Source of the DNA: Klenkia taihuensis
Lineage (GTDB): Bacteria; Actinomycetota; Actinomycetes; Mycobacteriales; Geodermatophilaceae
DNA length: 64,000 nt
Assembly (NCBI RefSeq): GCF_900112525.1
Contig: NZ_FOMD01000002.1
Span: 806,001 to 870,000 of the forward strand
Reading direction: 5' to 3'
Of this stretch, positions 26,904 through 36,863 are shown piece by piece. The position numbers were made by a program, and so were the translations under genes. Positions within the stretch are counted from its first letter, which is position 1, and every line of letters starts with the position of its first letter. The notes under the pieces were generated by a model. It was not told the DNA's origin. It worked only from the letters and a program-made list of their open reading frames with translations, and did no database searches.

Positions 26904-28127
26904 ATGGACGAGACCGCGCCGCTGAGCCGCACCGGGGACGCGCTGCGTGCGCACCCCTTCGCGGTGGACGTCGGCATCGCGGTGCTCGTCGGCCTCGCCA
27001 CCGTCGCCCTCGGCGGCAGCGGGGTCGAGGGGCCCGGCGACGTGCTGGTCTCGATCGGCCTGGTCGCCCCGCTGGCCTGGCGGCGCACCGCACCGGTCCC
27101 GGCGGCCGCGGTGGTGGTCGTCGTCGGGCTGGCCCAGGTCGCGCTGACCAGCTCCTTCGTGGCCGCGAACGTCGCCGTCCCGATGATGGTCTACGCGCTG
27201 GCCGCCTACGCCCCGCGCTGGGCCTCCCGCGCCGGGCTGGCCTTCGGTCTGGTCGGCGCGGTGATCGCCTCCCTGCGCTACTTCGGCGGCTTCTACTACG
27301 GCGACGCGTCCTTCTCCTACGGCCGCGGCCTGTTCGACCTGGTCATCACCGCCGGCGCCATCGGCGTGCTGGTGGTGGCCTGCTGGGCGATCGGCACGGT
27401 CAAGCGCGGCCGCATCCAGCGGGAGGCCGCGATGCTGGAGCGGGCCCAGCTGCTCGAGCTCGAGCGCGACCAGGAGATGCGGCTGGCCGCCACCACCGAG
27501 CGCGCCCGGATCGCCCGCGAGATGCACGACGTCGTCGCGCACTCCCTGTCGGTGGTCATCGCCCAGGCCGACGGCGGCCGCTACGCCGGCCGCGCCGACC
27601 CCGAGGCGGCGGTCGGGGCGCTGGAGCAGATCTCGGCCACCGGCCGGCAGGCGCTGGCCGACATGCGCGCCCTGCTCGGCGTGCTGCGCGAGGACGGCGG
27701 CCAGGAGTTCGCCCCGCAGCCCGACGTCGCCGCGGTGCCCGCCCTCGTCGAGGACGTCCGGCGCAGTGGGCTGGACATCGACCTGCTGGTCGAGGGCGAG
27801 CCGCGCGACCTGCCCACCGGCTCGCAGCTGGCCGCCTACCGGATCGTGCAGGAGTCGCTCACCAACGTGCTCAAGCACGCCGGGCCGGCCAGCCGGGCGT
27901 GGGTGCGGCTGCAGTGGCGCGCCGACGCGCTGGAGCTGTCGGTCCTCGACGACGGCCGCGGCGCCGCGGCCGCGATCGTGGACGCGGAGGGCCGCGACGG
28001 CCGGGGCCAGGGGCTGACCGGGATGCGGGAGCGGGCGCAGCTGCACGGCGGCCGGCTGGAGGCCGGGCCGCGCCACGGCGGCGGCTTCGGCGTCCACGCC
28101 GTCCTGCCCTACGGTCGACGGCGATGA
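26904..28127 (+). CDS. NarL-type two-component sensor histidine kinase
   Basis: A 407-residue membrane kinase. Five or six hydrophobic helices (residues 20-165) form the sensor with almost no extracellular loop, suggesting it senses membrane state. A coiled-coil then leads to the HisKA_3 phospho-acceptor block ERARIAREMHDVVAHSLSVV and a HATPase_c domain with ESLTNVLKHAG (N box) and GRGQGLTGMRERA (G box). The ATG at 26904 sits 7 bp after TAACCT (26891-26896), the layout of a leaderless actinobacterial promoter. It is coupled by ATGA overlap to the response regulator. The signal is unknown. Confidence 0.93.
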   Translation: MDETAPLSRTGDALRAHPFAVDVGIAVLVGLATVALGGSGVEGPGDVLVSIGLVAPLAWRRTAPVPAAAVVVVVGLAQVALTSSFVAANVAVPMMVYALAAYAPRWASRAGLAFGLVGAVIASLRYFGGFYYGDASFSYGRGLFDLVITAGAIGVLVVACWAIGTVKRGRIQREAAMLERAQLLELERDQEMRLAATTERARIAREMHDVVAHSLSVVIAQADGGRYAGRADPEAAVGALEQISATGRQALADMRALLGVLREDGGQEFAPQPDVAAVPALVEDVRRSGLDIDLLVEGEPRDLPTGSQLAAYRIVQESLTNVLKHAGPASRAWVRLQWRADALELSVLDDGRGAAAAIVDAEGRDGRGQGLTGMRERAQLHGGRLEAGPRHGGGFGVHAVLPYGRRR

Positions 28128-28822
28128 CGACGATCAGGGTGGTGCTGGTCGACGACCAGCAGATGGTCCGCGCCGGGTTCCGCATGGTGATCGACTCCCA
28201 GCCCGACCTGCAGGTCGTCGGCGAGGCCGGGGACGGCGGCGCGGCCGTCGAGCTGCTGCGCCGCACCCCGGCGGACGTCGTCCTCATGGACATCCGGATG
28301 CCGGGCACCGACGGCATCGAGGCCACCCGCCAGGTGACCGCGCTGCCCGACCCGCCGCGGGTGGTCGTGCTGACCACCTTCGACCTCGACGAGTACGTGG
28401 TCGCGGCCATCGGCGCGGGCGCCAGCGGCTTCCTGCTCAAGGACGCCGCGCCCGAGGAGATGCTCGCCGCGGTGCGCACCGTGCACGACGGCGACTCGGT
28501 GATCGCGGCCAGCTCCACCCGGCGGCTGCTGCAGCACGTGGCGCCGATGCTGCGCGGCGGCGCCCCGGCCTCCGCCGGCGGGCCCGACCCGGCGCTGGCC
28601 GAGCTGACGCCGCGGGAGACCGAGGTGCTGGTGCAGATGGCCTACGGGGCCTCCAACACCGAGATCGCCCGCGGCCTGTACGTCAGCGAGGCCACCGTGA
28701 AGACCCACGTCGGGCGGGTGCTGGCCAAGACCGGCTCCCGCGACCGGGTGCAGGCGGTGGTGCTGGCCTACCGGTCGGGCCTGGTGCACCCGGCCGACCT
28801 GCTGCGCGACGCGACCGGCTGA
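28124..28822 (+). CDS. LuxR/NarL-family response regulator
   Basis: A 232-residue cognate regulator of the preceding kinase. The receiver domain contains VVLVDDQQMVRAGF and the phospho-accepting aspartate in VVLMDIRMPGTDG, with the conserved Thr/Lys region VVVLTTFDLDEYV and GFLLKDAAPEEM. The C-terminal LuxR helix-turn-helix is LTPRETEVLVQMAYGASNTEIARGLYVSEATVKTHVGRVLAKTG. The targets are unknown. A run of 10-bp GGGCCCGGC-like repeats after the stop (28828-28860) may help terminate transcription. Confidence 0.94.
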   Translation: MTTIRVVLVDDQQMVRAGFRMVIDSQPDLQVVGEAGDGGAAVELLRRTPADVVLMDIRMPGTDGIEATRQVTALPDPPRVVVLTTFDLDEYVVAAIGAGASGFLLKDAAPEEMLAAVRTVHDGDSVIAASSTRRLLQHVAPMLRGGAPASAGGPDPALAELTPRETEVLVQMAYGASNTEIARGLYVSEATVKTHVGRVLAKTGSRDRVQAVVLAYRSGLVHPADLLRDATG

Positions 28823-28861: not shown

Positions 28862-29197
28862 TCAGCGGTCGGCGGCGATCCGGGCGGCCTTGCGCAGCGC
28901 GGCGAGCTGGCCGGGCTCGGCCCGCAGCGCACCGGTGATCACCGCGTCGTCGATGTCGGCCCACTCCACCTCGGCCCACAGGCCGCCGCCGAGGTCGTCG
29001 ACGTCGGGCTGGACCGTGAGCAGCCCGGCGGCCAGCAGCACGAACGGGCCGGGGCCCTGGTCGAAGACCAGCTGCAGCGCGGTCTCGAGGTCGGCGTCGC
29101 CGTAGGCGGTGCGCACCAGGGCGACCTCGAGCTCCTCCGCCGTCCAGATCCCCAGGAGCTGGGGCCGGCCCGGCCACCCGTCCCGAGGTCCGCTCAC
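28862..29197 (-). CDS. small protein of unknown function at the end of the mycosporine operon
   Basis: I do not recognise this 111-residue protein. It is acidic and soluble, with no signal or membrane helix. Visible features are an N-terminal GRPQLLGIWTAEELEVALVRTAYG, a middle FDQGPGPFVLLAAGLL and an acidic DDLGGGLWAEVEWADIDDAV. The GTG at 29197 is 9 bp after the mysD stop on the same strand, so it belongs to the same transcript. TAACCT (29204-29209, minus strand) six bases before the GTG could also give a leaderless secondary transcript. It may be a co-factor or regulator of mycosporine assembly, or an unrelated passenger. Confidence 0.65.
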   Translation of the reverse strand: MSGPRDGWPGRPQLLGIWTAEELEVALVRTAYGDADLETALQLVFDQGPGPFVLLAAGLLTVQPDVDDLGGGLWAEVEWADIDDAVITGALRAEPGQLAALRKAARIAADR

Positions 29198-29206
29198 CCG
29201 CGCAGG

Positions 29207-30235
29207 TTACGAGCGCCCCCGGTCCCCCGCAGCACGGGCCAGGGCGGCGGCGACCGCGACGTCCAGCAGCTCGGGCAGCTCGATCCCGGCCGCCCGGGCC
29301 ATCGTGGGCACCACGCTCTGCCGGGCGAAGGAGTTGTACAGCCCGGCCTCGAGGAACCACGGGACGCCGTCGGGGTCGACCCGGAAGTCGAACAGCGAGT
29401 AGTCCCGGCAGCCCATCGCGGTGTGGCAGGCCAGCGCCGCCTCCTGGACGGGGGCGGTGACCGGGTCGGCCGGGTCCACGACCCACACCGTCGGGGTGTC
29501 CTTGGCCATCAGCCCGAGGGTGCCGTCGTCGGCCCGGCGGATCTTGTCCTCGGCGGTGCGCACCGGGTGGTCGGCGGAGAGGCCGTACTCCTCCAGCGGC
29601 AGCGGCACGAGCTCCCCGTCGCGCACCACCACCCCGCAGCGCACCTCCCGGCCCAGCGGCACGTACTCCTCGACCAGGGCGTGCCCGGACTCCGCCCACG
29701 CGGCGGCCAGGGCGGCGGGCAGCTGGTCGGCGTGCACGACGTGGGTGATGCCGGCGGAGTTGTCGGCGTCGACCGGCTTGACCACCAGGGGCGGGGCCAG
29801 CGTCGTCGTCCCCCCGGGGGCGAGGACCTCGCCGGCCGGCACCCGGACGCCGGCCGCGGCCACCACGGCGCGGGCCCGGGCCTTGTGCGCGCCCAGCGCC
29901 ATCACGTCGGCGGGGTTGCCGACGAACGGGATGCCCAGCACGTCCAGCAGGGCCCGGTAGGAGGTCATGCCGGGGATGCAGAACATCTGCGGCAGCGCGA
30001 CGTCGGGCCGCAGCGCCACCAGCCGGGCCAGCGCGTCGCCGATCGGCAGCGGCTGCGCGTCGGCCAGCTCGGCCAGCGTGGCGGGGAACCGCCAGGAGCC
30101 GTCCGGGGCGACGTGCGCGACCACGTGCTCGTGGGAGTCGCCGACGTTCGCCAGGCAGTCGGCGGCGTAGAGCCGGGACAGGTCGTCCATGAACGCGCTG
30201 GTCGGCGACCCGACCAGGTGCAGCACCCGGGCCAT
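29207..30235 (-). CDS. mysD: D-Ala-D-Ala-ligase-like mycosporine-glycine:amino acid ligase (MysD)
   Basis: Predicted to condense mycosporine-glycine with a second amino acid (Ser, Thr, Ala or other), giving a strongly UV-absorbing iminomycosporine such as shinorine. The 342-residue protein has a D-Ala-D-Ala-ligase/ATP-grasp fold: an N-terminal LHLVGSPTSAFMDDLSRLYA, IPFVGNPADVMALGAHKARARA (ligase start helix), PLVVKPVDADNSAGITHV (ATP-binding lysine) and a late metal site FDFRVDPDGVPWFLEAGL. The ATG at 30235 shares one base with the mysC stop. Immediate linkage to mysA, mysB and mysC makes a cell-wall role unlikely. The second amino acid cannot be predicted. Confidence 0.86.
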   Translation of the reverse strand: MARVLHLVGSPTSAFMDDLSRLYAADCLANVGDSHEHVVAHVAPDGSWRFPATLAELADAQPLPIGDALARLVALRPDVALPQMFCIPGMTSYRALLDVLGIPFVGNPADVMALGAHKARARAVVAAAGVRVPAGEVLAPGGTTTLAPPLVVKPVDADNSAGITHVVHADQLPAALAAAWAESGHALVEEYVPLGREVRCGVVVRDGELVPLPLEEYGLSADHPVRTAEDKIRRADDGTLGLMAKDTPTVWVVDPADPVTAPVQEAALACHTAMGCRDYSLFDFRVDPDGVPWFLEAGLYNSFARQSVVPTMARAAGIELPELLDVAVAAALARAAGDRGRS

Positions 30236-31506
30236 CAGTCCCCCGCCGGCTGGACGAGCTTGCCGATGTTGAAGTCGATCCGGCTCCACGCCCCGCGCGA
30301 GCGCAGGCTGCGCAGCAGGAGCAGCGGGACCTGCACGTGGTGCAGCACCAGGTAGGGCAGCGGGTCGGCCCGGTCGAACACGGCGTCGGTGCCCTCGCGG
30401 ACCACCCGCCAGCGGCCCGCCGCCGTCCGCGGGGCGCTGAGCGCCCGCCACAGCTCGTGGTAGGTCCAGTAGGTCGGCCGGCTGCCCGGCCGCGGCTCCA
30501 GCGGGGTGTCGCGCGCGTGCAGGTAGGCGTCGGCCAGGCCCGGGTGGTCATGGAACATCGTGATGGCCGAGTGCGTGCGCGGGTTGCACTCGATGGCGTA
30601 GGGCGTGCCGTCCTCGGCCTCGATGAAGTCCAGCGACACCTGCCCGGTGCCGCCCAGCGCGGCGGCGAACCGGGTGGCCCACTCCCGGATCCGCGGCCGG
30701 TCGACCTGGGCGTAGTTCACCTGGAACGCCGACGAGGGGCAGCAGCACCACACGGTGACCTCGCCGTCCCGGACGGTCGAGTGCGTGCACACCTCGGTGC
30801 CGGTGACGAACTCCTGCAGGATCCAGGGGTTGTCCGGGCTGATCGGCTTGCCGGCCACGAACGCCGCGGTCTCGGCGCGGGTGGGCCGGGGCAGCGGGGT
30901 GAGGTCGAGGCGGTGCACCGGGTCGTAGGCGATCGACTTGAGCACATAGGGCCGGGTGGAGCGGGTGAAGTCGAAGTCCAGCACCTGCTGGGCGTCGGTG
31001 ATGCGGTGCGTGTCCGGCACCGACAGCCCCAGCGAGGCGGCCAGCGCGGTGAAGGCGTGCTTGTCGTCCAGCGTGCGCACGGTGTCGGCGTCCAGGCTCA
31101 GCACCTCGCAGTGCCCGGCCAGCAGCTCGGCCGAGGCGGCGTCGGGCTCCGAGGCCACCGGCGAGCAGACCGGCACGTACAGGTCGACCCCCTCGGCCCG
31201 GACGACGTCCAGCAGCGCCTGCGCGTAGCCGGGGTCCCGGGGGTCGGGGACGACGTGGAACGTGTCCACCGCCCGCGAGAACCGGTGCCCGGTGAACCGG
31301 TAGGCGGCCTTCTCCACCAGGACCACCCGGTGCCCGGCCGCGGAGAAGGACCGCGCGAGCTGCAGGGCCTTGGTCATCTTGCCGCCGCTGATGAGCACCG
31401 TCCGCCGGTCGGCCGCCGGCGCGGGCCGCGGGGCCCGGGTGGTCAGCAGCGCCGCCGCGGTGACCGCCAGGTCGACCGGCAGGGTGAGCGCCAGCCCGGC
31501 CAGCAC
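30235..31506 (-). CDS. mysC: ATP-grasp mycosporine-glycine synthase (MysC)
   Basis: Attaches glycine to 4-deoxygadusol to give mycosporine-glycine. A hydrophobic N-terminal helix is followed by TVLISGGKMTKALQLARSF, then LYVPVCSPVASEPDA, LSLDADTVRTLDDKHAFT, ILQEFVTGTEVCTHSTVRDG and AIECNPRTHSAITMF, all closely matching cyanobacterial MysC. It ends with WSRIDFNIGKLV, again as in MysC. The GTG at 31506 starts inside the hydrophobic helix and leaves a 71-bp gap. A CTG at 31581 would overlap the upstream stop as CTGA, mirroring the GTGA overlaps elsewhere in the operon, and would restore a full N-terminal segment. The protein may be membrane-associated. Confidence 0.9.
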   Translation of the reverse strand: MLAGLALTLPVDLAVTAAALLTTRAPRPAPAADRRTVLISGGKMTKALQLARSFSAAGHRVVLVEKAAYRFTGHRFSRAVDTFHVVPDPRDPGYAQALLDVVRAEGVDLYVPVCSPVASEPDAASAELLAGHCEVLSLDADTVRTLDDKHAFTALAASLGLSVPDTHRITDAQQVLDFDFTRSTRPYVLKSIAYDPVHRLDLTPLPRPTRAETAAFVAGKPISPDNPWILQEFVTGTEVCTHSTVRDGEVTVWCCCPSSAFQVNYAQVDRPRIREWATRFAAALGGTGQVSLDFIEAEDGTPYAIECNPRTHSAITMFHDHPGLADAYLHARDTPLEPRPGSRPTYWTYHELWRALSAPRTAAGRWRVVREGTDAVFDRADPLPYLVLHHVQVPLLLLRSLRSRGAWSRIDFNIGKLVQPAGD

Positions 31507-31577
31507 CGCCAGCGACCGGCCCGGGGTGGGCCGGACCGGCGCGTCCTCCCCGGTGCGTGGCCGGGCGGGTGCGGCGG

Positions 31578-32366
31578 TCAGCGGGTCGCCCCGTGGTCGC
31601 GGACCATCCCCCGGTGCATCACCCGGTCGCCGACCACCACGGAGTGGTCGCCGCGGTGCAGCACGCAGGCGTTGTCCCACATCACCACGTCCCCGGGCGC
31701 CCAGCGGTGGGCGAAGGCGTGCGCCTCGTCGGTGGAGTGCGCGTACAGCTCCTCGACCAGCCCGGCGGCCTCGTCGTCGGGCAGCCCGCTCACCGACGCG
31801 CACCGCTTCGGGGTGGTGAGGAACAGCGCCGGGCGGCCGGTGAGCGGGTGCGGCCGCACCACCGGGTGCTCGGCCTCGGTCTCGTCGTCCGGGCCCAGCA
31901 GCTCGGGGTCGATGCCGGTGACCACGTGCCGGATCGTGCGGCCCTCGACCCGCTCGCGCAGGTCGGCCGGCAGCGTCTCCAGCGCCCGGTACTGGTCGGT
32001 GAACACCGTCTCCCCGCCCTGCGAGGGGATCTGCACCGCCCGCAGCGCCGTGTAGGCCGGCGGGGTGGACAGGTAGGAGCTGTCCACGTGGAAGGTGCTG
32101 CGCGGCGGTTCCGTGCGGCCCACGTTGCTGATCACGTTGAGGTCCGAGTACCCCTCGACCGGTGTCTCGCCGGCGGTGAAGGTCAGCGGGCCGAACGCCC
32201 GCAGGAAGGCCAGGAAGGCGTCGTCGTCCACGTGCTGGTCGGGCAGCACGACGACGCCGTGCTCGGCGAGCGCGGCGCGCAGCCCGGCGACGTCCTCGGG
32301 GGTGACGGCGGCGACGTCGACACCGGTGACCTGCGCGCCCAGCGGCGCCAGCGGGGTGGTCTGCAC
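31578..32366 (-). CDS. TauD/TfdA-type Fe(II)/2-oxoglutarate-dependent oxygenase inside the mycosporine operon
   Basis: A 262-residue TauD-fold dioxygenase. The iron facial triad is visible as His93-x-Asp95 in STFHVDSSY and His237 in WDNACVLHRG; Arg252 in HRGM is placed to bind 2-oxoglutarate. It should couple 2-oxoglutarate decarboxylation to oxidation of an unknown substrate. It sits between mysB (8 bp upstream, with a GAGGAG site before the GTG at 32366) and mysC, so its substrate is probably a gadusol, mycosporine or imino-mycosporine. The known oxygenase in such pathways, MysH, also uses Fe(II)/2-oxoglutarate to make palythines but is of the phytanoyl-CoA-hydroxylase type. A taurine-like or sulfonate role cannot be excluded. 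Confidence 0.88.
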   Translation of the reverse strand: MQTTPLAPLGAQVTGVDVAAVTPEDVAGLRAALAEHGVVVLPDQHVDDDAFLAFLRAFGPLTFTAGETPVEGYSDLNVISNVGRTEPPRSTFHVDSSYLSTPPAYTALRAVQIPSQGGETVFTDQYRALETLPADLRERVEGRTIRHVVTGIDPELLGPDDETEAEHPVVRPHPLTGRPALFLTTPKRCASVSGLPDDEAAGLVEELYAHSTDEAHAFAHRWAPGDVVMWDNACVLHRGDHSVVVGDRVMHRGMVRDHGATR

Positions 32367-32374
32367 GGTTCTCC

Positions 32375-33148
32375 TCAGGGGGTGGTGCGGCGGACCAGGG
32401 TGATCCCGTCGCGGAGGGGGACCAGCACCTGCTCGACCCGGGGGTCGGCGGTCAGCCGGTCGTTGAACGCGGCGATCGCCGCACCGTTGGGGGTGTCCGG
32501 GCCGGCCCAGGGCTGACCCTGCATGAGGGTGTTGTCCACCGCGACCAGCCCGCCCGGGGCGAGCAGGCCGCCGTCCAGCACGGCGTCGAGGTAGCCGGCG
32601 TAGCCCGCCTTGTCGGCGTCGACGAACACGACGTCGAAGACCCGGCCCTCGGCCGCCAGGGTGGCCAGCGTGTCCGCCGCCGGCCCCACCCGGACGTCGA
32701 TGCGCGCCCCGGCCGGGAAGCAGCGCTGCGCGAACGCGGCCACCTCCGGGTCCAGCTCGCAGGCGACGACCTCGCCGTCGGCGGGGAGCGCCTGCGCCAT
32801 CGCCAGCGCCGAGTAGCCGGTGAACATGCCCAACTCCAGCACCCGCCGGGCACCGGTCATGCGCAGCAGGAACTGCAGGAACCGGCCCTCGACGTGGCCG
32901 GAGAGCATCTCGGCCTCCAGCGACCCCGACCACGGCGCGGACCGGGTCGCCGCGGCGAGCGCGGCGAGCTCGGCCGACTCGGGGGACGTGTGCCGCTCCA
33001 GGTAGGGCTCGAACCCCGCCGCCAGGTCGCGGATGCCCTCGAGCTCGGCGCGCAGGCCCTGCTCGACCGCGCCGAGCCGGCCGCAGACGGCGTCCAGCCG
33101 CGCCGCCAGGAGGCCCAGCGGCGTGACCGGACGCAGCCCCGGCGTCAC
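32375..33148 (-). CDS. mysB: SAM-dependent O-methyltransferase (MysB)
   Basis: Predicted to methylate desmethyl-4-deoxygadusol to 4-deoxygadusol. The 257-residue protein is a caffeoyl-CoA/catechol O-methyltransferase-type class I enzyme: SAM loop RVLELGMFTGYSALAMAQAL, acidic ribose-binding VVACELDPEV, metal/catalytic VVFVDADKAGYAGYLDA and LVAVDNTLMQGQ. The GTG at 33148 overlaps the mysA stop by four bases (GTGA), so the two are translationally coupled, as expected for consecutive pathway steps. A longer upstream open stretch lies inside mysA and is not used. Confidence 0.87.
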   Translation of the reverse strand: MTPGLRPVTPLGLLAARLDAVCGRLGAVEQGLRAELEGIRDLAAGFEPYLERHTSPESAELAALAAATRSAPWSGSLEAEMLSGHVEGRFLQFLLRMTGARRVLELGMFTGYSALAMAQALPADGEVVACELDPEVAAFAQRCFPAGARIDVRVGPAADTLATLAAEGRVFDVVFVDADKAGYAGYLDAVLDGGLLAPGGLVAVDNTLMQGQPWAGPDTPNGAAIAAFNDRLTADPRVEQVLVPLRDGITLVRRTTP

Positions 33149-34377
33149 GGCGCCTGCACGACCGGGCTGGTGCGCGGGACCATGAACGCGTCGACGCCCT
33201 CGCCGCCGCGGGGCAGCCCGGCGACGACCTCGCGGTGCAGCTGCAGCGTCTCCACGAGCTCGTCGTCGGAGACGTCGTTCATGAACGTGCACTCCCCGAT
33301 CGGCTTCGGCGCCGCCGCGCGGAGCAGGCCGTCGCGGGTCTGCAGGATCGACCGGGTCGACCCGATGAGCAGCTCCGGGGTCAGGTAGGGGCTGTCCACG
33401 GTCAGGCCGAGCCGGCTGAACAGCGCCAGCACCCGGTCGCGGTCGGCGACGGAGATGTAGCCGCGGCGCGCGGCCAGGGTCGCCGAGTAGGCCATGTCCA
33501 CCGAGATGGCGTGCCCGTGGAAGTAGGGCACCTCGGGGGTCAGCTCCAGCGTCGGGCTCCAGGTGTGGCCGTAGGCGATCACCCGGTCCAGGTCCAGCTC
33601 GGCGAGGTTGGGCACCTCCAGCTGCAGCATCGTCTCGATCGCCTCGTCGGTGACCTGGTCGGCGACCTTGCGGATCTCCGGGGTGCCGTCGACGTGGCCG
33701 AACCGGGTGCGCAGCAGCTCCTCGCCGTGCTCGTCGAGCAGGTCGAACACGGTGCGGTTGGCCACCACCGCGATCTTGATCAGCTCGGCCATGCCGTTGC
33801 GGACCTGGTCCTCGGCGAGGGAGGCGAGGAACGAGAAGTCGAGGAACACCGTCGAGGACGCGTGGTAGGCGCCCAGCCGGTTCTTGGCCTTGCCGTGGTT
33901 GACCGCGACCTTGATGGACACGCTGGCGTCGATCAGCCCGATGAGGGTGGTGGGGATCCGGATGTAGGGCGTGGACCGCTTGTAGGAGGCGCAGGCGAAC
34001 CCGGCGACGTCGGTGACCAGGCCGCCGCCGACCACCAGCGGGGCCTCGGTGCGCAGCAGGCCGTAGGCGCCGAAGGCGTCGACCAGCCGCTCCAGGGTGG
34101 CCAGCGTCTTGTCGGTCTCCGCGATGGCCACCGGGATGATCGTGAGGTCGATGCCGGCCGCGGCGAAGTAGGCCTCCATGGCCTCGCGGTGCAGCGCGAG
34201 CACGTTCTCGTCGACGACGGCCAGGCAGCGGCCGGCCGCGCGGTAGCAGTCGGCCAGCTGCGGGTTGTGCGGGGCGAACACGCCGTCCACCGGGACCAGG
34301 CGGTACTCGGTGCGGTGCACGGCCTCGACGGCGAACCCGCCGTCGGTGCGGGTGACGGATGAGCTGACGGTGGTCAT
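33145..34377 (-). CDS. mysA: desmethyl-4-deoxygadusol synthase (MysA), sugar phosphate cyclase family
   Basis: Cyclises sedoheptulose 7-phosphate to desmethyl-4-deoxygadusol, the first step of mycosporine synthesis. The 410-residue protein is a dehydroquinate-synthase-like cyclase with NAD-binding VVGGGLVTDVAGFACASYKRSTPYIRIPTTL (split here by context), zinc-ligand regions including MAELIKIAVV, AYGHTWSPTLEL and YFHGHAISVDMAY. Length and motifs fit the DDGS/EEVS clade rather than AroB (about 350). EEVS, which makes 2-epi-5-epi-valiolone, is the main alternative. Adjacent mysB, mysC and mysD favour DDGS. The ATG at 34377 follows AGAGGA. It is 11 bp downstream of the HAD-like gene. Confidence 0.87.
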   Translation of the reverse strand: MTTVSSSVTRTDGGFAVEAVHRTEYRLVPVDGVFAPHNPQLADCYRAAGRCLAVVDENVLALHREAMEAYFAAAGIDLTIIPVAIAETDKTLATLERLVDAFGAYGLLRTEAPLVVGGGLVTDVAGFACASYKRSTPYIRIPTTLIGLIDASVSIKVAVNHGKAKNRLGAYHASSTVFLDFSFLASLAEDQVRNGMAELIKIAVVANRTVFDLLDEHGEELLRTRFGHVDGTPEIRKVADQVTDEAIETMLQLEVPNLAELDLDRVIAYGHTWSPTLELTPEVPYFHGHAISVDMAYSATLAARRGYISVADRDRVLALFSRLGLTVDSPYLTPELLIGSTRSILQTRDGLLRAAAPKPIGECTFMNDVSDDELVETLQLHREVVAGLPRGGEGVDAFMVPRTSPVVQAP

Positions 34378-34388
34378 CGGGTGTCCTC

Positions 34389-35036
34389 TCAGGCCTGCAG
34401 CGCGGCGGGGTCGAGGTGCTCGACCACGGGGGCGTCCCCGAAGTCGTGACCGGCGGTGTTGGTGTTGGGGAAGGCCAGGACGCGGACGCCGGCGGCGGTC
34501 GCCGAGGCCACCCCGCCGACGTTGTCCTCGACCGCGACGGCGTCCGCGGCGTCGACGCCGAGGGTGCGCAGCGCGTGCCGGTAGGGCGCCGGGTCGGGCT
34601 TGGACTCCGCCACGACCGAGCTGTCCACGACGAGGTCGAAGTCGGCCAGCTCCAGGCCGTCCACCCCGGCGACCAGGGCGACGACGTTCTCCGGCGAGGT
34701 GGTGGTCACCAGCGCCACCGGGTCCCCGGCCTCCTTGGTGGCCCGGACGGCGTCGAGCACGCCCGGGCGGGCGGTGAGGCCGCCGCGGCCGAGGGCCTGC
34801 TGGAACAGCTCGGACTTGGTGGCGTGCACCGCGGCGGCGTCCACGGTCTCGCCGCGGTCGCGGGCGTAGGAGGCGACGCGGTCGGCGCCGCCGTTGCTGG
34901 CCAGCAGGGCGCGGTACTCGTCCTGCTCCCACCGCCAGTCCAGGCCGTGCGCGGCGAAGGCGTCGTTGAAGGCGGCGCGCTGGAGCTCGGAGGTGTCGGC
35001 GATCGTGCTGATGGACCCGAGGAGCAGGGCGGGCAC
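34389..35036 (-). CDS. HAD-fold protein lacking the catalytic aspartates, first gene of the mycosporine operon
   Basis: A 215-residue HAD subfamily IA protein. The motif I position reads LLLGSISTIADTSELQ. Where active enzymes have Asp-x-Asp it has Gly7 and Ile9, so phosphoryl transfer through the normal nucleophile is impossible. Motif II (LVTTTSPENV), the motif III lysine (ESKPDPAPY) and motif IV (VAVEDNVGG) remain, so the fold and perhaps phosphosugar binding are kept. A GTG at 35036 with GAGG upstream sets the start. The gene is 11 bp upstream of mysA. It might bind sedoheptulose phosphate, assist MysA, or act in regulation. A similar GSI(S/G)T-type variant is known to me from other HAD proteins, so this is probably not a sequencing error. 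Confidence 0.75.
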   Translation of the reverse strand: MPALLLGSISTIADTSELQRAAFNDAFAAHGLDWRWEQDEYRALLASNGGADRVASYARDRGETVDAAAVHATKSELFQQALGRGGLTARPGVLDAVRATKEAGDPVALVTTTSPENVVALVAGVDGLELADFDLVVDSSVVAESKPDPAPYRHALRTLGVDAADAVAVEDNVGGVASATAAGVRVLAFPNTNTAGHDFGDAPVVEHLDPAALQA

Positions 35037-35222: not shown

Positions 35223-36863
35223 GTGGACGTCGCCGGCACCGTGCGCGAGCACCGGGAGGCCCTGCTGGGGCCGGCGTTCCTGCTGACCGGTGACGAGCGG
35301 CTGGCCGAGGACCGGGTCGACCGTGCGCTGGCCCGGCTGGCGCCCGGTGCGGACCACGCGACGGCGGTGGCCGCGCTGGTGCGCACCCGTGCCCCCCGCG
35401 GCGCGGTCGTGCCGGCCGGCCCGGACCCGTGGTGGGTGGGCGCGGACGAGCTGGCCGCCGCCCGGGCCACCGCCGCCGTGCTCGCCGGCCTGGACGACGC
35501 CGCCCGCGCCGCGCTGGTGCTGCACCACGAGGGCGCCCCCGCCGACCCCGCCGCCCTGGCCCGCGGCCGCGCAGCGTTGATCAGGGGAGTTGATCCAGGT
35601 CCGTCGTCCCTCACCAGCTCTGGTGCAGGAGGACGGACCCCCGCGCAGGAGGACGCCGTGGCGCGGGCGCTGGACGGGTTGCTCGCCGTCCGTCGTCCCC
35701 CGGCGCGGGACGACGTCGCCGCCGTGCCGCTGGTCCGGGCGCACCGCCGGTCCCGCTGCACCCGGCCCCTGCTCGCGGTCGTCGGGCTGGTGGCCGTCGC
35801 GCTGCTCGCGGTGCTCGTCCCGGGCCCGGCCCCGACGGCCCCGCGGGGCCGCTTCGACGGCCCGACCCGCGGCTCCCTCGCCGGTGACGAGGCCGTCCGG
35901 GACGCGCTGCTCGCCGCACCCGCCGAGGGCCCCGCGACCGGCCGGCGGGAGCTGGTGCTCGCCGGCGAGCTGCTGGACCGGCGGTGGGCGCTCGTGGCCG
36001 GCCGCACCGACCGCGGCTGGACCGGGTGGTGGTCGGCCGGCCCGGCGGACGGCCCCCTCTCCCCCGTCGCCGGACCGGTGGCGCTGCCGCCGGACCGGCC
36101 CGCCGCGCTGCAGCTGGACGACGTCCTCGTGGTGGTCGCCGAGCCCGACGAGCCGGTCCAGGTGTCCACCGGCCTGGTGGTCCGCGCCGACGGCTCGGCC
36201 GGGCGCGACCCGGTCGCCCTGCCGCTCGAGGACGGCGTCGGTGTGCTGCGGCTGGCCGCACCCGACCCCGGCGGGGTGGCGGTGCAGGTCCGGGCCGGGG
36301 TGTCCGCGCTGCCGGTGCCGGTCGCCAGGGCGGGGGACGCCGACGCCCGGCCCGCCGTCCCTCCGCTGGTCCCCCTCCGCGGTGGGGACGCCGACCTCGG
36401 CGCCCGCACGGCCGCCGTGGACGCCGCCCTGGGCGCGGTGGCCGCCCCGACCGGTCAGGACCCGGCGACCCTCACCCCGCAGCTGCTGTGGGCCGGCGCC
36501 CTCCCCGGCCCGCGCGGGGGCGGGGTGGACGCCGCGGTGCTGGTCGTGCCCCAGCCCAGCGGCGCCGTGGTGGTGAGCACCGCCTGGGCCGCCCGGCTCG
36601 GGGACGGCAGCCTGCAGACCATCGGCTGCGGCACCCAGGGCTTCCCGAGCGGCACCGACCCCGCCGGGCTGGTCGTGGCGGTGCGCTGCGTGGTCGCCGA
36701 GCGCGGCACCGGGGCCGCCCGCGCCACGGTGCTGCTGACCGCCCCGACCGGCACCGTGCAGCTCCCGGACGACCGCCGGGACACCGGCCGGGTGGCGGAC
36801 CCGGCCGCCGGCTCCTCGGTGCCGGTGGGCTCCGCGGGCCCGGGCGACCTGCTGGCCGGGTGA
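35223..36863 (+). CDS. single-pass membrane protein with a sigma-factor-like N-terminal region
   Basis: A 546-residue protein not assigned to a named family. The first 40 residues (REHREALLGPAFLLTGDERL and following) resemble region 2 of SigE-type ECF sigma factors, and LDDAARAALVLHHEGA near residue 100 resembles the start of region 4. Both are degenerate, with no DNA-recognition helix. A basic patch (RAHRRSRC) precedes one transmembrane helix at about residues 180-200. The remaining 340 residues would be outside the cell and are Ala/Gly/Val/Pro-rich without a recognised domain. The GTG at 35223 is chosen by the sigma-like start. It may be a degenerate sigma fused to a sensor, or simply a divergent membrane protein. 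Confidence 0.6.
   Translation: MDVAGTVREHREALLGPAFLLTGDERLAEDRVDRALARLAPGADHATAVAALVRTRAPRGAVVPAGPDPWWVGADELAAARATAAVLAGLDDAARAALVLHHEGAPADPAALARGRAALIRGVDPGPSSLTSSGAGGRTPAQEDAVARALDGLLAVRRPPARDDVAAVPLVRAHRRSRCTRPLLAVVGLVAVALLAVLVPGPAPTAPRGRFDGPTRGSLAGDEAVRDALLAAPAEGPATGRRELVLAGELLDRRWALVAGRTDRGWTGWWSAGPADGPLSPVAGPVALPPDRPAALQLDDVLVVVAEPDEPVQVSTGLVVRADGSAGRDPVALPLEDGVGVLRLAAPDPGGVAVQVRAGVSALPVPVARAGDADARPAVPPLVPLRGGDADLGARTAAVDAALGAVAAPTGQDPATLTPQLLWAGALPGPRGGGVDAAVLVVPQPSGAVVVSTAWAARLGDGSLQTIGCGTQGFPSGTDPAGLVVAVRCVVAERGTGAARATVLLTAPTGTVQLPDDRRDTGRVADPAAGSSVPVGSAGPGDLLAG

Follow-up and report, generated by a model that had tools for sequence, protein, structure and literature searches.

Four-gene clusters for the sunscreen shinorine, a mycosporine-like amino acid (MAA), were reportedly described by Balskus and Walsh in 2010 and, for Actinosynnema mirum, by Miyamoto in 2014. 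These clusters encode a desmethyl-4-deoxygadusol synthase (DDGS), an O-methyltransferase and an ATP-grasp ligase, with a D-Ala-D-Ala-ligase homologue in addition in A. mirum, all of which they share with the operon of Klenkia taihuensis that is the subject of this study. The clusters, that of A. mirum among them, are not known to contain a HAD-family gene or an oxygenase gene. The Klenkia operon has both, and occupies positions 28862 to 35036 on the minus strand of a 64,000-nucleotide stretch (the window) of contig NZ_FOMD01000002.1, positions 806,001 to 870,000. A HAD gene and a TauD/TfdA gene are reported to be conserved in actinobacterial MAA clusters (GATOR-GC, 2025 preprint, PMC11888242). 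In its passages on these clusters the preprint states that the two are "not present in Cyanobacteriota", leaves the role of HAD open, and cites unpublished work in which Streptomyces coelicolor M1152, given the HAD- and TauD-containing operon of Rhodococcus fascians D188, produced shinorine, palythine and palythine-serine.

The Klenkia operon is an already reported HAD/TauD-type actinobacterial MAA cluster, and its architecture is known. The reported clusters of Pseudonocardia alni and R. fascians D188, also from Actinomycetota, have the same families, HAD and TauD lying next to the mys core. Gene order differs, since TauD lies between mysB and mysC in Klenkia but last in another R. fascians strain that has the homologous six genes (L138), and where the preprint, in those passages, speaks of a HAD enzyme (PMC11888242), the Klenkia HAD is without the catalytic residues. 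A sequence-only reading of the window had described a mysA-B-C-D operon interrupted by a TauD gene and headed by a degenerate HAD, and had suggested a modified sunscreen or an extra control step outside the standard pathway; the observation was correct and the oxygenase probably does modify the product, but the novelty is lost because the preprint already has HAD and TauD in such clusters. As far as searches show, three things are not in print: the pseudo-phosphatase nature of HAD, its tighter linkage than that of TauD, and HAD-TauD loci in cyanobacteria. The words "nucleophile", "aspartate", "catalytic" and "pseudoenzyme" are absent from the main text of PMC11888242 (supplements excluded), and among the matches listed in the open-licence literature no dedicated study of the MAA-cluster HAD was found. 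As one more operon of a reported type, the Klenkia locus is by its existence alone of modest interest, and it is the loss of Asp in every copy read that sharpens the question of what HAD does in MAA clusters. We propose, with a probability of about 0.68, that this is an MAA operon yielding a palythine-type sunscreen in which HAD acts as a non-hydrolytic accessory subunit.

The HAD-fold protein at the head of the operon

The first gene (34389..35036, minus strand, GTG start) encodes a protein of 215 residues that matches PF00702 (2.7e-19). Its closest solved relatives in both fold and sequence are the CbbY xylulose-1,5-bisphosphate phosphatases (PDB 4uar, 4uat, 4uav; 8e-40), with which it has cap residues in common and whose activity is described in the part of PMC10212915 that concerns CbbY. 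The AlphaFold2 model (pLDDT 94.4) gave 4uat as the best Foldseek match (TM 0.83). Active members have FDxDGT at motif I; the window protein has LGSIST, and alignments place the GSIST codons (35004..35018, minus strand) at the DxDGT that carries the nucleophile and the acid/base Asp of active HADs. Motif I was GS[IL][SG], with no Asp, in 69/69 readable copies from the window and 68 loci (63 GSIS, 5 GSIG and 1 GSLS; a split copy contributes its second half as one extra row), and GSIS in all seven further copies of a later draw, one of which (L215) is probably from the same assembly as L098. Motifs II (T), III (K) and IV (ED) are present, and DxDG(T/V) at motif I is not.

Comparison of 43 MAA copies with 12 CbbY-type proteins showed that CbbY D8, D10, E17, H20 and S177 are G, I, S, Q and N in the MAA HADs (four in 100% and the I in 98% of the 43), such that both catalytic Asp, E17 and H20 are replaced in every copy compared. 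CbbY W35, W37, G50, G51, R54, H75, K78, R94, K151, E175 and D176 are kept in 43/43. The pocket, otherwise conserved, has changed uniformly and not by scattered decay. Judged from these alignments, HAD is a CbbY-derived pseudo-phosphatase that has lost both catalytic Asp, for which the usual HAD chemistry would be impossible, and in MAA clusters it is probably not a phosphatase. An ordinary phosphatase was rejected on the loss of motif I in every readable copy, and the organism's own CbbY moved into the cluster is disfavoured, as the Drouetiella genome (G512) has a DVDGT copy (L189) as well as a GSIGT copy.

The kept cap, Lys, Thr and Asp suggest that HAD still binds a phosphorylated ligand. 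We picture a descendant of CbbY-like phosphatases from which the catalytic Asp pair is gone, while its cap and the greater part of its phosphate pocket are strictly kept. It would bind a sugar phosphate of the pathway or a phosphorylated intermediate of a ligase, or else dock on a pathway enzyme, and may thereby control or stabilise the pathway. Such ligands should be at hand, given that the substrate of MysA would be a C7 sugar phosphate and that the two ligases, MysC and MysD, are expected to depend on ATP. The HAD gene may be needed despite looking dead, which matters for moving MAA operons into production hosts.

The HAD trees are unrooted and were built with the motif I columns omitted. 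The 43 MAA copies alone make up one side of a branch, supported at 96/95 in the careful tree and 72 in the quick tree, and together with a copy from Roseobacter litoralis they split from 19 DxD proteins at 100/97. This Roseobacter HAD (P0001; L145:5989-6660) has FGSIGT for FDxDGT. It is plasmid-encoded, with a Trk potassium-uptake gene (trkH) on one side and an L,D-transpeptidase gene on the other, and belongs to no MAA cluster; the degenerate motif is therefore not confined to sunscreen operons. In the careful tree it has a long branch, with the MAA copies on one side of it and the DxD proteins on the other, and an assignment to the active-protein side was dropped on account of that intermediate position. 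With the root placed among the DxD proteins, a single shared Asp loss would be simplest, two losses being possible also. The motif was inspected in 4 of 18 plasmid HAD matches, and Pseudomonadota were covered through plasmids only, with one GSIG copy. If the relationship is true, it would point to a wider family of sensor-like pseudo-phosphatases.

Linkage of HAD and TauD in Actinomycetota and Cyanobacteriota

HAD is tied to MysC more tightly than TauD is. Among 396 genomes drawn evenly from the phylum, MysC exceeded 500 bits in seven, and HAD exceeded 200 bits in exactly these seven; the next HAD scored 99 bits, and none of the 23 weaker actinobacterial HADs fetched had the GS motif. A second sample, 394 genomes drawn evenly from the class, contained ten with MysC. 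In the union of the two samples (14 MysC genomes, three of them shared) HAD was beside MysC in 14/14 and TauD in 13/14, counting one genome (L212) whose TauD aligns in two frames. The two TauD pieces of that locus (L212:8410-9140) reflect a frameshift or a sequencing error.

A further set of 88 loci (68 actinobacterial, 20 cyanobacterial) is biased, as it consists of two congeners, six loci from the phylum and, out of 405 MysC relatives, the best 80, picked by likeness to HAD-bearing seeds. Its G+C of 72% led us to count one locus labelled Candidatus Melainabacteria (L085) with the actinobacterial ones; it has actinobacterial-type MAA genes and is probably a mis-binned actinobacterial contig. 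Where at least 4.5 kb was available on both sides of MysC (58 actinobacterial loci), HAD and MysD were each found in 58 and TauD in 55; three cut contigs among the 10 less covered loci (L074, L075, L081) show no HAD. The three well-covered loci in question keep HAD without any TauD (L062, L089) or with a degraded one (L090), and no close TauD was found elsewhere in their genomes. The remnant at L090:12300-12656 ends a Rhodococcus MAA cluster in which HAD is still open.

These loci bear on the possibility that TauD has a dedicated partner or chaperone in HAD, the pair forming one exchangeable module. Since HAD is kept in all three, it is not simply the oxygenase's partner, and its retention in loci without TauD speaks for a core-pathway role. 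In most actinobacterial loci, furthermore, the HAD and TauD genes are not adjacent. By script, TauD was last in 38 of the 68 loci (Rhodococcus and Mycolicibacterium, for example), between mysB and mysC in 16 (Klenkia and Kineosporia among them) and ahead of HAD in two (Pseudonocardia L071 and L087); the script misplaces L060 relative to tblastn, which was trusted, and there is a split gene in L077 and in L106.

It is the cyanobacterial loci that speak for such a module, and HAD accompanying TauD there argues for a role alongside the oxygenase as well. HAD and TauD were both present in 3 of the 20 (L088, L093, L121; G+C 46-50%) and neither was seen in 17, of which 12 are informative because the other five end at most 2.2 kb from MysC on the side of the pair. 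In all three, TauD and HAD form a divergent adjacent pair on the strand opposite to mysABCD, and in L088 Pfam confirms both names. MysA, MysC and MysD of these loci cluster with cyanobacteria (supports 95, 99 and 99), from which we regard the mys genes as native cyanobacterial. The cyanobacterial HADs fall inside the actinobacterial HADs (six-row set, 95/94), and actinobacterial HADs as a sole clade were rejected (approximately unbiased test, p-AU 0.036, for a group named after the quick tree had been seen). The three cyanobacterial TauDs are placed next to those of actinobacteria without being nested among them (support 81); in the TauD outgroup tree one outgroup row (L182) has a branch length of 10, and 5 of 12 intended outgroup rows are missing. 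Joint transfer of the pair is thus suggested by its position and is not shown by the trees. Weighing the both-or-neither pattern and the adjacency against the loci with HAD and no working neighbouring TauD, we consider the module somewhat unlikely.

The three loci contradict the statement that HAD and TauD are not present in Cyanobacteriota. Such pairs are rare: neither a close HAD nor a close TauD was found in any of 291 other sampled cyanobacterial genomes (the centre genome excluded, MAA content uncounted), and of 20 weaker cyanobacterial HADs fetched, 18 had DxDG and two fell outside the pattern used. The HAD-TauD loci may represent a natural gain experiment. Tentatively, and at less than even odds, we suggest that the dead CbbY-type GSIS pseudo-HADs with their kept pocket are a distinct clade of phospho-metabolite-binding regulators or scaffolds, which would tie sunscreen synthesis to pentose-phosphate flux and on which MAA operons in Actinomycetota, and in a few cyanobacteria, would depend; together with TauD they would make an addition that a native cyanobacterial pathway can take up.

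Core enzymes, the oxygenase and the expected product

All four core enzymes of an MAA cluster are encoded on the minus strand of the window. MysA (33145..34377, 410 residues, named from Pfam and PDB comparison) is 61% identical to PDB 5tpr (7.7e-161) and 37% to 4p53 (2.2e-73), which we take to be a DDGS and a 2-epi-5-epi-valiolone synthase (EEVS) respectively, the PDB titles being "3-dehydroquinate synthase" and "Cyclase". An EEVS-type MysA is accordingly disfavoured and the DDGS type, as first read, upheld. MysB (32375..33148, 257 residues) is an O-methyltransferase (PF01596, 2.2e-48). MysC (30235..31506, 423 residues with a hydrophobic N-terminus) has a weak ATP-grasp match in Pfam, under the curated cut-offs, and passes the cut-off of NF005315 (2e-129), a family titled just "hypothetical protein". 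MysD (29207..30235, 342 residues) is a D-Ala-D-Ala-ligase homologue (PF07478, 7e-17) with the omega-loop pair L-V, for which R. fascians L138 has L-A in the alignment, the positions having been found via the C-A pair of Microcystis. In cyanobacteria these two positions set the product choice of MysD, and L-A and L-S enzymes make mainly shinorine (PMC11983340, in its part on the loop). By analogy, the second amino acid here is most likely serine.

The core is not uniform among related loci. Two of them have cyclases at the mysA place (L061:9891-11069 and L063:9565-10668, both minus strand) that are 35-37% identical to both 5tpr and 4p53, with TTLIG and SIKVAVNH replaced by TSLV and PRTCCDG and with HAD between the cyclase and mysB; possibly a different sugar phosphate cyclase takes part in MAA synthesis there. 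Another cluster has HAD, mysA, mysC, mysD and TauD, and no mysB was found between its mysA and mysC (L218:7134-7245).

The TauD/TfdA-type Fe(II)/2-oxoglutarate oxygenase (31578..32366, minus strand, 262 residues) matches PF02668 (8e-61) as its sole Pfam family at E up to 0.01, and no second PF02668 match was found in the 4.3 Mb host genome. In 44 aligned sequences (of 61 listed TauD references, the window included in the 44) the HxD...H motif, T120 and R252 are invariant. By homology to TauD, H93 and D95 (32082..32090) and H237 (31658-31656) are presumably the iron ligands and R252 (31613-31611) the 2-oxoglutarate Arg. The predicted model has a pLDDT of 95.0, with PlaO1 as the nearest structure, and from its residues the oxygenase seemingly is functional. 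A tRNA-Pro called by ARAGORN antisense inside this gene (32045-32129, plus strand) is probably a false positive.

Two oxygenases of other MAA clusters offer a comparison. MysH of Nostoc linckia is likewise an Fe(II)/2-oxoglutarate oxygenase, reported to turn disubstituted MAAs into palythines (Chen 2021). It belongs to the phytanoyl-CoA dioxygenase family, and since the Klenkia protein is PF02668 only, the two are probably convergent. MysI of Nostoc sp. UHCC 0926 is, like the Klenkia oxygenase, a TauD/TfdA protein of MAA biosynthesis, the comparison being by family and gene neighbourhood; its own neighbours are MysF and the non-ribosomal peptide synthetase MysE, and it is proposed, in the passage on this gene, to act on the C3 glycine (PMC10510106). 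Neither a second methyltransferase nor a non-ribosomal peptide synthetase is among the seven Klenkia genes, which were the extent of the search.

The Klenkia TauD is best read, by analogy, as a MysH-like, palythine-forming enzyme. From what is known of the families, MysA would convert sedoheptulose 7-phosphate to desmethyl-4-deoxygadusol, MysB would methylate it, MysC would attach glycine and MysD would then add the second amino acid, probably serine. TauD would hydroxylate the alpha carbon of the glycine and glyoxylate would be lost, leaving a palythine-type sunscreen with absorbance at about 320 nm; this would be the simplest route to the palythines reported. We assign the step to TauD because a homologous operon is reported (unpublished) to yield palythines. 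Three points weigh against this proposal as a whole: the D188 expression result is second-hand as well as unpublished, the L-V pair of MysD is absent from the patterns described in the part of PMC11983340 that deals with the loop, and HAD is retained in loci that have no TauD or a degraded one.

The unusual loop pair also favours a different outcome, namely that TauD carries out another oxidation and the product is a new MAA, not palythine. That the only Pfam family is TauD and not the phytanoyl-CoA dioxygenase family of MysH would fit, as would the action on the C3 glycine proposed for the TauD-type MysI. Given that the R. fascians operon with the same two genes is reported to give palythine and palythine-serine, we consider a new MAA unlikely and retain the palythine-type product.

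Another possibility is that HAD is still an enzyme, with a different nucleophile or with non-phosphatase chemistry, for instance in aiding the breakdown of the carbinolamine formed by TauD. The conservation of its pocket, in which CbbY T115, K151, E175 and D176 are kept, seems too high for a bystander, new invariant Ser residues have arisen at positions 8 and 16 of the window HAD, and in the three cyanobacterial loci HAD occurs only together with TauD. No HAD-fold enzyme, however, is known to work without the motif I Asp, and HAD stays in L062 and L089, where TauD is absent. We regard this as improbable and favour the non-hydrolytic accessory role.

Operon layout, the small gene and surroundings

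Transcribed from 35036 to 28862, the seven co-directional genes are HAD, MysA, MysB, TauD, MysC, MysD and a small open reading frame, with intergenic spacings of +11, -4, +8, +71, -1 and +9 bp. All seven were recovered at the positions given in the sequence-only reading, which was right too that the 71-bp gap before mysC depends on the chosen start, since it hinges on a GTG at 31506 and would disappear with a start at the in-frame CTG at 31581. The gene labels are consistent with the Pfam and NCBIfam assignments, the small frame having no match. The six larger genes have an identical order in 7/7 fetched congeners. The family search found MysC in all but one of the nine genomes of the genus, and 11 of the 103 other genomes gave no more than weak matches.

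Comparison of the window and its congeners gave dN/dS (nonsynonymous to synonymous substitution) below 1 in all pairs, namely 28 for each of the six larger genes and 15 for the small one, with medians of 0.38 for HAD, 0.20 for MysA, 0.34 for MysB, 0.38 for TauD, 0.28 for MysC, 0.30 for MysD and 0.33 for the small gene. All seven look to be under purifying selection between congeners, and since dN/dS is below 1 in every pair, none of them resembles a chance reading frame. A cryptic or decayed cluster without a product is very improbable, as all seven genes are open and apparently selected and as the one genome of the genus in which MysC was not found is 73% complete.

The small gene (28862..29197, minus strand) encodes 111 residues. 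It had been counted as a member of the operon and of a seven-gene order to be sought in relatives, which held for the larger six; the small frame was present in only 5/7 congeners and in 0/6 more distant loci, no further locus of the wider set had it, and there was no Pfam or NCBIfam match. It was rejected as part of the system, being outside the conserved set and, where seen, limited to the genus.

Beyond it, convergent with the end of the operon, are histidine kinase and response regulator genes (window 26904-28822, plus strand). They adjoin the small gene in L052, L053 and L068; in L067 the distance is greater by about 4.8 kb, and in the available stretches of L057, L066 and L069 they were not found; with this inconsistent proximity in congeners and the convergent orientation, the case for a two-component regulator of the operon is weak and it was set aside. 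Upstream of the operon a long divergent reading frame (window 35223-36863, plus strand) has no Pfam family and is conserved at 56-83% in four distinct congeners of those read.

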